From Halichondria panicea (lineage: Eukaryota; Porifera; Demospongiae; Suberitida; Halichondriidae): a DNA stretch of 64,000 nucleotides. Below the pieces are notes generated by a model. It worked only from the letters and a program-made list of their open reading frames with translations, had not been told where the DNA came from and ran no database searches. The stretch is taken from NCBI RefSeq assembly GCF_963675165.1, contig NC_087392.1, positions 5,401,442-5,465,441 on the forward strand. The letters run 5' to 3'. Position numbers and translations under genes: made by a program. This document shows, in pieces, positions 7,448-9,652 of the stretch. Within the stretch, counting starts at the first letter, position 1; every line of letters begins with the position of its first letter.

Positions 7448-9652
7448 ATGGCTGAGAGACAAGACCGTGAACAAGAGTACATATTCAGAAATGTTCAACT
7501 CTTCAAGAATGATACCCTTGGTACTGGCTCCTACGGGGCAGTGTGTAAAGCCAAGTGTGACCAGCTACTCTGTGCTGCCAAGCTACTCTATCCAGTGCTC
7601 TTCCAAATAGCTGTTCCAGATCCTGGCAAAGAACATAGACACCCGTTTAGAAGATTCGAAACAGAGTGTGCATTTCTGAGTCGTATCAACCACCCCAACA
7701 TTGTACAGTACTTGGGGACCTATCGCGATCCCGACACAAATGCACCAGTTCTTCTCATGGAGCTCATGGACGAGAGTCTGACACACTTCCTGGAGTCATC
7801 ACCTGGAGACATTCCCTACCACATCCAAGTCAACCTCTCCTATGACATAGCTCAAGCACTTGCCTTTCTCCACTCCAATGGAATCATCCATCGCGACCTC
7901 TCCAGCAACAATGTCCTACTAATTGCAGGCACTCGAGCCAAAGTCACCGATTTCGGGATGTCCAAATTCAGGGACATAAATGTCAGCCGACTAGCCACAA
8001 TGACCAAATGCCCGGGAACACCAGCCTTCATGTCTCCTGAGGCACTAAACGAACCACCAGTGTACACAGAGAAACTAGACAACTTCTCATTTGGTGTGCT
8101 TGTAGTTCAGACCACAACTCGACAGTTTCCAAAGCCAACAGATCGATTCGAGAATATTCAAGTTCCCCATCCACGAAACCCAGGTCGCACAATTGAGGCT
8201 AAAATAGCAATCCCAGAACTAGAGAGAAGACAAGCTCACATGAGCCTGATTGAGCCCACCCACCCTCTACTGCCGATTGCTCGTCACTGCCTCAAAGACA
8301 GAGATGATAAACGACCATCTTCCCAACAGCTTTGCCAAACACTGGATGCTCTCAAGAGGACACCACGGTACCAAGAAAGCTCCCAACAAGACCTGCACCA
8401 GATGCTCAGAGAGAAAGATGAACAAATAACAGCTAAAGACAACCAACTACAAGCAAATGAACAGATTATAATGGAAAAAGACACACAGCTACAAGAAAAT
8501 CGAGAGACAACAATACAAAACAATGAACAGTTACACACACAAAATATTGAAATTGGTGAACTCACTACAAGACTAGGCCAAGCAACACAAGAAAACCAAA
8601 CCCTTCAACATGAGGCTGAAGCCAGAGAGAGACAGCTGAGGAGACTCAACCAAGAGTTGCAATCAAGTGAGGAGAACACTGCTGCCCTCCAACAAGCCAT
8701 CGATCAACGAGACAGAGAAGTGACTCAGCTGAGACAAGTGTTGGCAAGCAAGAACGAGGAATCTCACAATCTATCGACTCGAATGCACCAAGTCGCACTG
8801 CAAGATGAGCAAGCTACACCAATGAAACCTGTTACAATAGAGTCACTACCTGATGCACCTGATGGTATTGGGTATAGATCATCATCAGCCGTGATTGGAG
8901 ACAAGGCATACTTTAGTCCACACGGAAGTAAAACTGTTCATGAGTTCAGCAACAATCAGTGGTACGAGTTACCACCTTGCCCTAACCTGTACTTCACTAT
9001 TGTCAGTGTTAATGACATGCTCACAACTGTGGGGGGATATTCAGACACACAACAGTATAGTAACAAACTCTACAGCTACATTAACAACAAATGGGTCGAA
9101 CACTTCCCTCCCATGCCAACCAAACGGTGGACACCTGGAGCTGTGTACGCTAACAACACACTTGTAGTGGTAGGAGGATATAGTCATGCAAAACATTTAA
9201 ATACTGTTGAGATATTAAATACTGCTAACATGCGATGGTTTATTGTTAGCTCACTACCTGTGCCAACCAATCAATCATCAACAACGATCTGTGGAGACTA
9301 TGTGTACATACACCCACACAATCAAGTGAAGTATTCAGTGTACAAATGCTCATTAAGACAACTAACTCAATCCCAGCCAATCTCAGCTATATGGGAGAAG
9401 ATTGCCCCTTTGCCAGTTAGCTGGTCCACTCTTGTTACCATCAATGGCCACCTGCTGGCAGTGGGTGGGCGGGACTCCAATGGAGATAACACGAAGGACA
9501 TATATCAGTACAACGAGACATCATGGACTGTCATCAGTCAAATGTCAACACCTCGAGCAGCATGCCTCACTGCTGCCCTCCTTGGGAACAAACTGATGGT
9601 GGTGGGTGGAGTTGGTGCAGACAGAAAATGTGAAGTAATTACTTTTGTATAG
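7448..9652 (+). CDS. Kinase-coiled-coil-kelch protein, copy 1 (734 aa)
   Basis: Single-exon ORF. Residues 12-300 form a protein kinase domain of tyrosine-kinase-like type: glycine loop GTGSYG (25-30), Lys45 in [12 protein letters not shown] (148-155), DFGMSK (168-173) and SPEAL (196-200). All catalytic residues are present, so an active cytosolic kinase is expected. Residues about 320-450 are a Gln/Glu-rich coiled coil. Residues about 466-734 hold roughly six kelch blades, with VGG or IHP turns followed by a W a few residues before PP or P.P. There is no signal peptide or membrane segment. The gene lies on the opposite strand inside intron 11 of the disabled remodeller. The start is the ATG in CTAGCTATGGCTGAG, and the same start context precedes the second copy. 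The substrate and kelch ligand are unknown. A sensor or scaffold role is inference. Confidence 0.93.
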   Translation: MAERQDREQEYIFRNVQLFKNDTLGTGSYGAVCKAKCDQLLCAAKLLYPVLFQIAVPDPGKEHRHPFRRFETECAFLSRINHPNIVQYLGTYRDPDTNAPVLLMELMDESLTHFLESSPGDIPYHIQVNLSYDIAQALAFLHSNGIIHRDLSSNNVLLIAGTRAKVTDFGMSKFRDINVSRLATMTKCPGTPAFMSPEALNEPPVYTEKLDNFSFGVLVVQTTTRQFPKPTDRFENIQVPHPRNPGRTIEAKIAIPELERRQAHMSLIEPTHPLLPIARHCLKDRDDKRPSSQQLCQTLDALKRTPRYQESSQQDLHQMLREKDEQITAKDNQLQANEQIIMEKDTQLQENRETTIQNNEQLHTQNIEIGELTTRLGQATQENQTLQHEAEARERQLRRLNQELQSSEENTAALQQAIDQRDREVTQLRQVLASKNEESHNLSTRMHQVALQDEQATPMKPVTIESLPDAPDGIGYRSSSAVIGDKAYFSPHGSKTVHEFSNNQWYELPPCPNLYFTIVSVNDMLTTVGGYSDTQQYSNKLYSYINNKWVEHFPPMPTKRWTPGAVYANNTLVVVGGYSHAKHLNTVEILNTANMRWFIVSSLPVPTNQSSTTICGDYVYIHPHNQVKYSVYKCSLRQLTQSQPISAIWEKIAPLPVSWSTLVTINGHLLAVGGRDSNGDNTKDIYQYNETSWTVISQMSTPRAACLTAALLGNKLMVVGGVGADRKCEVITFV

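Follow-up and report, generated by a model that had tools for sequence, protein, structure and literature searches.

The DNA analyzed here (the window) comprises 64,000 nucleotides of contig 16 (5401442-5465441) of the sponge Halichondria panicea, and its genes were compared with a genome of 131 Mb in 39 contigs. Contig 2 contains two occurrences, ~9 kb from each other, of a motif characteristic of the sponge protein silicatein, which the reversed control lacked; this points to a demosponge. The window carries two members of a germline repertoire of kinase-kelch proteins that retain their catalytic residues and in which positive selection acts on one face of the kelch propeller. The best explanation, to which a probability of roughly two in three is attached, is that the repertoire consists of sensor kinases, probably cytosolic, whose propeller has diversified for ligand binding, and that these most likely act in innate immunity or in the distinction of self from non-self, a role suggested by the evolutionary pattern.

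The two window genes encode an N-terminal kinase, a Q/E-rich linker and a C-terminal kelch domain, all in one frame. The relevant features are as follows.

7448..9652, + strand: kinase-coil-kelch gene 1, an uninterrupted 734-aa frame with Pfam Pkinase and Kelch matches
7448..8383, + strand: gene 1 protein kinase domain, residues 1-312 (Pfam; omega 0.31)
8384..8833, + strand: gene 1 Q/E-rich linker, residues 313-462, probably coiled-coil (composition only)
8834..9649, + strand: gene 1 six-bladed kelch propeller, residues 463-734 (Pfam, AlphaFold2 model, Foldseek)
21500..23662, + strand: kinase-coil-kelch gene 2, an uninterrupted 720-aa frame with kelch from about 22835
9653..11727, unstranded: 3′ flank of gene 1, common to 23663-25734, a duplicated segment with an SNF2-like gene on the - strand

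Pfam Kelch_1 scored 57.0 bits against a cut-off of 20.1. An AlphaFold2 model of the kelch region, built on the two window sequences alone, is a six-bladed propeller (pLDDT 81, pTM 0.83) whose Foldseek neighbors include peptide complexes of KLHL12, KLHL20 and KEAP1. Thus, the Pfam motifs and a six-bladed model matching kelch structures together identify a kelch-repeat β-propeller. The best solved-structure matches of the domain were designed SAKe propellers, KLHL2 and NS1-binding protein. Those of the kinase domain were IRAK4, plant BIK1 and CTR1, and the kinase is described as TKL/IRAK-like, a label taken from these best matches rather than from a kinase tree. The Pfam scan of both window proteins returned only kinase and kelch/propeller families: BTB, BACK and NACHT/NB-ARC domains were absent, as was a Death domain from the frames scanned, which an upstream exon may extend.

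Genes 1 and 2 are situated in duplicated segments 11.7-14 kb apart that also hold pieces of an SNF2-like gene on the opposite strand, and the first 600 bases of their 3′ flanks are 2.0% different. The SNF2-like helicase gene (Helicase_C, SNF2-rel_dom) occupies the - strand at 5708-5890, 24565-24837 and neighboring frames and is partly duplicated; two of four frames scanned in this region lacked a Pfam match, and gene 1 appears to lie antisense inside the helicase gene. Tandem minisatellites were noted at 2013-2700, 12707-13818, 26789-27087, 33301-33602 and 58706-58966, the first three of which have one common unit of ~43 bases that is repeated in the segmental duplication. Locus L011 (G000:C16:5398194-5400353), immediately before the window, is nearly identical to gene 2 (21500-23659) with ~6 coding differences, apparently owing to very recent duplication or conversion, although gene 1, which is located between the two, has diverged.

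The sequence-only reading of the window had counted, by eye, about 9 differences between the paired proteins in the first 320 residues and about 40 in the last 255. Alignment gives 9 in residues 1-320, 22 in residues 321-479 and 41 in residues 480-734. The same reading placed the kelch differences just after the GG turn and just after the P-x pair of each blade, at positions that line the ligand pocket in Keap1. The places named are right, and the substrate pocket of KEAP1 is indeed formed by the DA and BC loops (PMC4668279). Within the kelch region (residues 463-734), DA or BC loops account for 117 of the 272 residues and hold 30 of the 42 differences (hypergeometric p 5e-5); 9 more are in strands and 3 in AB/CD loops. 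The differing kelch codons include 41 with one altered base, 8 with two and 3 with three, in keeping with the multiple-base changes that had been reported. By the NG86 method dS and dN are 0.057 and 0.014 in the kinase, 0.130 and 0.095 in the coil linker, which is thus variable too, and 0.086 and 0.090 in the kelch region, with 52 non-synonymous and 15 synonymous differences. When the 20 most variable kelch sites were selected from the other 23 paralogs, a choice that left out both window genes and L011, the window pair differed at 12 of them compared with 30 of 248 positions elsewhere (p 2.5e-6).

A protein search of the genome produced at least 80 matches, the majority of which lie at 3.76-5.70 Mb of contig 16. 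Among the matches listed, 28 of the 32 that span at least 700 of 734 aa have no stop. The analysis of this first family was conducted with 26 close paralogs that possess long open frames, following removal of L017 (close to L016), L027, L030 and L036 (stops), L037 (partial), L038 and L051-L057 (distant), and L039, L042-L050 and L058 (broken or partial); L023 and L031, which are among the 26, have altered C-terminal ends. The catalytic residues expected of a Pkinase domain, K45, D150 and D168 (Lys, HRD Asp and DFG Asp), are present in 26/26 paralogs, which suggests that the kinases are active. The linker spans 122-177 aa with 17 different lengths. Many of the 26 copies have a common leader of ~40 bases, mostly ending TAGCT, directly 5′ of the ATG (about 7400-7447 in gene 1), which may be a promoter or 5′ UTR element. 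The four ORFs examined by hydropathy showed neither a signal peptide nor a transmembrane segment; a cytosolic sensor is therefore a better guess than a surface receptor. The kinase-kelch proteins probably are cytosolic, an assignment that an unseen upstream exon could alter. An ungapped comparison, in which homology seemed to stop at the ORF edges, had pointed to retroposition of the copies or to a splice acceptor at these edges. In a gapped search of 24 loci, which form 276 pairs, matches reach right up to the ORF on the upstream side in 53 pairs and on the downstream side in 6, and this possibility was therefore dropped.

Site-wise selection was assessed separately for the kinase, coil and kelch regions of the 26 paralogs, the check that had been set beforehand, using an MG94 codon model with F3x4 frequencies in code written for this work (not PAML or HyPhy) and naive empirical Bayes. 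The clear, strong signal was in kelch: comparison of M8a with M8 yielded a 2dlnL of 399 (398.8) with omega+ of ~4.5 at 11.6% of sites and a whole-domain omega of 0.88. The kelch thirds, each on its own tree, gave a 2dlnL of ~119 each. The 2dlnL was at most 5.9 in 16 null simulations, eight of which were recombinant, being built on three different trees and analyzed on one; the optimizer was imprecise, with null values down to -14. There was no clear positive selection in the kinase among the 26 paralogs (omega 0.31; M8a versus M8 2dlnL 2.1, p 0.07). A hint of kinase selection (2dlnL 5.8) arose with the tree scale unoptimized and fell to 2.1 once it was optimized, and residues R7 and G246 exceed 0.95 in the naive posterior of the optimized run. 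The coil showed a weak positive class (2dlnL 14.3, omega+ 1.6) that ligand binding by the propeller leaves unexplained and that counts against the favored explanation. With its variety of lengths and this weak signal the coil linker (8384-8833) may likewise be exposed to shifting demands.

Pairwise comparisons revealed the same pattern. In 24 close pairs the BC+DA loop codons as a whole, which form a class defined by structure and not by variability, had a dN/dS of 1.87, versus 0.49 for strands plus AB/CD loops and 0.30 for the kinase. Synonymous divergence therefore is not raised to the same degree as non-synonymous divergence; an equal rise would have spoken against selection. The BC+DA codons compared with the remainder gave 0.95 versus 0.41 over all 325 pairs and 0.95 versus 0.46 in 12 non-overlapping pairs, and this fall in BC+DA dN/dS beyond close pairs counts against the preferred explanation. 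Homogenized kinase 5′ ends account for part of the contrast between kinase and kelch among the closest copies. Overall, the kelch and kinase codon models support the earlier proposal of diversifying selection on a recognition surface that is coupled to a conserved kinase.

The selected codons with posterior >0.95 number 20 and are distributed in gene 1 as follows.

8918..8923, + strand: selected codons 491-492, blade 1 BC loop (codon model, structure map)
8987..8992, + strand: selected codons 514-515, DA loop 1-2, after CPN (codon model, structure map; selected in family 2 too)
9038..9055, + strand: BC loop of blade 2, selected codons 531 and 536, GG+1 and GG+6 (codon model, structure map)
9122..9133, + strand: DA loop 2-3, selected codons 559 and 562 (codon model, structure map)
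9179..9196, + strand: BC turn of blade 3, selected codons 578, 579, 581 and 583, GG+1 to GG+6 (578, 579 and 583 strand by strict DSSP)
9269..9274, + strand: DA loop 3-4, selected codons 608-609 (codon model, structure map)
9422..9424, + strand: DA loop 4-5, selected codon 659 (codon model, structure map; family 2 too)
9470..9490, + strand: BC turn of blade 5, selected codons 675 and 681 (codon model; strand by strict DSSP)
9560..9562, + strand: DA loop 5-6, selected codon 705 (codon model, structure map; family 2 too)
9614..9622, + strand: BC loop of blade 6, selected codons 723 and 725 (codon model, structure map)

All 20 sites reside in DA/BC loops and turns, which comprise 116 of the 267 scored sites (Fisher 2e-8), when the strand ends in blades 3, 5 and 6 are moved to the kelch motif, such that B ends before or at GG and C starts later than in DSSP. 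When strict DSSP strands of at least 3 residues are used instead, 15 of the 20 are in DA/BC loops (102 of 267 sites, p 6e-4), two of which (514 and 531) are single bridge residues in DSSP; the remaining five (578, 579, 583, 675 and 681) are on B-C hairpin tips that count as strand. Tested against opposite-face loops the placement gave a Fisher value of 0.004, and 1 of 267 circular shifts equaled it. Variation thus is neither spread over the blade nor buried in strands, and positive selection is focused on one propeller face. By analogy with KEAP1, this probably is the interaction face. Entropy among the 26 paralogs peaks just after GG and just after P-x in most blades. The 20-residue face signatures are distinct in all 26 paralogs and differ on average at 16.4 of 20 positions, with the window pair differing at 15.

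Relaxed constraint, under which redundant copies decay and the kelch fold tolerates surface changes, would accommodate a whole-domain omega near 1 and the existence of broken copies, e.g., truncated frames and L036 with 4 stops. However, omega is well above 1 at few sites rather than 1 everywhere, half of the other kelch positions (124/248) are occupied by a single residue in 90% or more of the copies, and the AB and CD surface loops, with close-pair dN/dS of 0.45 and 0.50, are as conserved as strands. Relaxed constraint is already contradicted by these data and is extremely improbable; findings with a second family, described below, weigh against it further.

The first-family genes are mosaic, because nearest neighbors change along the gene and the kinase and kelch trees disagree, e.g., for L024/L025 and L034/L035. 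Over its first 60 codons gene 1 matches L010 and L028 exactly; it is closest to L015 in the coil and to L010 in much of kelch, and has a 3′ flank in common with gene 2. Hence, the window pair is a mosaic with other paralogs and not a plain duplicate. As read from these patterns, the copies duplicate in segments and probably swap pieces by gene conversion. Mosaicism also invites the proposal that kelch variability stems from gene conversion with divergent donors or from local hypermutation instead of selection, and a flank difference of 2% in the window pair compared with a kelch dS of 8.6% is compatible with it. Moreover, NG86 dS at the 20 selected codons is ~2.4-fold that of strands (0.207 versus 0.087 in close pairs; 0.522 versus 0.238 in all pairs), whereas simulation with omega of 4.5 versus 0.4 produced only a small rise (0.163 versus 0.143 and 0.330 versus 0.292, in close and all pairs, respectively). 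Nevertheless, dS in the neighboring, unselected face-loop codons equals background (0.082 versus 0.087 in strands, close pairs). The pooled likelihood, which handles multiple hits, assigned the selected codons a synonymous rate of 1.26 (95% 0.82-1.82) and a non-synonymous rate of 6.07, the latter at sites chosen for high omega; the corresponding rates were 0.99 and 0.80 for other BC/DA codons and 0.92 and 0.51 for the rest of kelch. The rise in NG86 dS is not significant by this approach, but there may be a modest excess. Differences at codon positions 1, 2 and 3 were 0.55, 0.56 and 0.42 at selected codons, the reverse of the trend in the rest (0.12, 0.12 and 0.17). Conversion moves variants, but by itself does not generate dN > dS at chosen codons. 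Altogether, an origin of kelch variability in conversion or hypermutation is very unlikely, and selection for diversified recognition remains the preferred explanation.

A second kinase-kelch family, larger than the first and spread over contigs 1 (mostly 15.5-17.4 Mb), 6, 12 and 28, allowed the analysis to be repeated independently. Its members (L059-L094) were located at G000:C1:15481204-17389917, C1 10.98-11.03 Mb, C6 0.48-0.79 Mb, C12 and C28. The family has at least 126 kelch exons, the number scored of 460 candidates, and 122 of the 126 are without a stop. Kinase and kelch sit in neighboring frames and introns therefore are presumed. A scored kinase exon was found within 5 kb upstream of 71 of the 126 kelch exons versus downstream of 9, a lower bound as the pairing used 122 of 140 kinase matches, the weakest being left out. 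On contig 1, all 54 kelch exons between 15 and 16.2 Mb point in one direction and all 50 above 16.6 Mb in the opposite direction, as in a large inverted duplication. Of the scored exons 36 were fetched, 33 (over 250 aa) were aligned and 31 were used; L079, L091 and L094 (short pieces) and L067 and L072 (near copies of L066) were left out and the frameshifted end of L065 was masked. The 31 exons displayed a whole-exon omega of 1.20 and a positive class with omega+ of ~9 (2dlnL 927). Ten of the 20 selected sites of family 1 coincide with sites of family 2 (p 1.9e-6), and 25 of the 27 mappable family-2 sites are in DA/BC loops. Sites of the second family applied to the first gave dN/dS values of 2.03 (close pairs) and 1.15 (all pairs), and the reciprocal application gave 2.67. 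Both the renewed selection of the same positions and the near absence of stops from the scored exons are at odds with decay of redundant copies.

In the mechanism envisaged, the DA/BC face of the kelch propeller would dock a protein or peptide, the coil probably would oligomerize the protein and bring kinases together, and the nearly constant IRAK/TKL-like kinase would signal with an output common to all copies. Natural selection would repeatedly alter mainly the side chains that line the face and leave the fold, the opposite face and the kinase unchanged; on this proposal, each copy would therefore bind a different ligand. Copies would arise by segmental duplication, and gene conversion between them would homogenize parts of the kinase and reassort coil and kelch segments, with selection then retaining face variants. 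The ligands most likely would be foreign or non-self proteins that evolve fast, and signaling would most likely lead to an innate immune or self/non-self response.

Two alternatives retain the selected face and assign it another task. The proteins may be diversified substrate adaptors instead of sensors. In that case kelch would bring a wide range of endogenous substrates to a single kinase, and the changes would be driven by arms races, for example intragenomic conflict, control of symbionts or gamete recognition. The kelch domain of KEAP1 recruits substrate via this face (PMC4668279), but the copy number of at least 126 family-2 kelch exons and the dissimilar residues at selected positions fit open-ended recognition better than a fixed set of endogenous substrates; this alternative is considered unlikely. 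The repertoire might otherwise be an allorecognition or fusion-compatibility system rather than one that senses pathogens. Sponges discriminate self from non-self on contact, which fits this possibility. HET-D/HET-E, the nearest precedent, serves in allorecognition (PMC1805685) and fits it as well. Many dispersed paralogs, in place of one polymorphic locus, and the lack of signals for secretion or membrane insertion in the four proteins examined argue against it, and it is judged rather unlikely. A repertoire of sensors with an innate immune or self/non-self role accords best with the data.

In plants, LRR receptor kinases and NLRs occur in tandem arrays with sequence exchange, positive selection on exposed ligand positions and conserved signaling parts, but their recognition fold is unrelated to the propeller loops used here. 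The closest precedent appears to be the WD40 receptors HET-D/HET-E of Podospora anserina, in which NWD (NACHT-WD40) genes undergo positive diversifying selection on few codons per propeller repeat together with sequence exchange (PMC1805685). Both systems are multigene families of recognition proteins, putative ones in the sponge, with selection at the propeller interaction surface and exchange between members, and the features of a diversified propeller repertoire, i.e., selection on the face, a conserved scaffold and exchange between copies, are all found here if the interaction face is as in KEAP1. The fungal proteins employ WD40 repeats with NACHT and other N-terminal effectors, whereas kelch and a kinase are used in this animal; selection there affects 4 codon positions of near-identical repeats instead of sites in non-identical blades; and 10 genes there (PMC1805685) compare with at least 26 analyzed plus at least 126 kelch exons in the sponge. 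The BTB-kelch adaptors KEAP1/KLHL have a similar propeller with a DA/BC face that binds peptide in KEAP1, and are Foldseek neighbors, but they possess BTB/BACK domains, which the window proteins lack, and do not carry a kinase in their chain; the available text of PMC4668279 does not describe a hypervariable repertoire of them. IRAK4, BIK1 and CTR1 resemble the window kinase by best solved-structure match, but the window frames lack a Death domain or ectodomain and the partner of the kinase is a C-terminal kelch propeller.

No kinase-kelch recognition repertoire was found among the matches listed from the open-license literature. A ‘Kelch motif containing gene’ displayed negative changes in sponges after exposure to microbial patterns in a report whose available text does not state kinase attachment (PMC6208332), and the term kelch occurs 0 times in the available text of PMC8662651. 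The principle of selection on a propeller interaction face combined with exchange between copies is already known from HET-D/HET-E (PMC1805685). A kelch version that is wired to a kinase, in an animal and in such numbers, was not seen among the literature matches listed. The chances are about even that these families constitute a hitherto undescribed system of intracellular recognition in an early-branching animal, with ~150+ germline copies in two related kinase-kelch families, an individual ligand face per copy, one kinase output, and selection and gene conversion, which would fill the place that NLRs or LRR receptor kinases have elsewhere.

The means by which early animals that lack adaptive immunity distinguish self from microbes or from other individuals are poorly understood. 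With its defined fold, its defined variable face and its attached kinase, a large repertoire of this kind would open that question to testing, as ligands could be screened per face and kinase activation measured. If the proposal is true, kelch propellers of an animal would have arrived, with another fold, at the solution known for fungal WD40 receptors.
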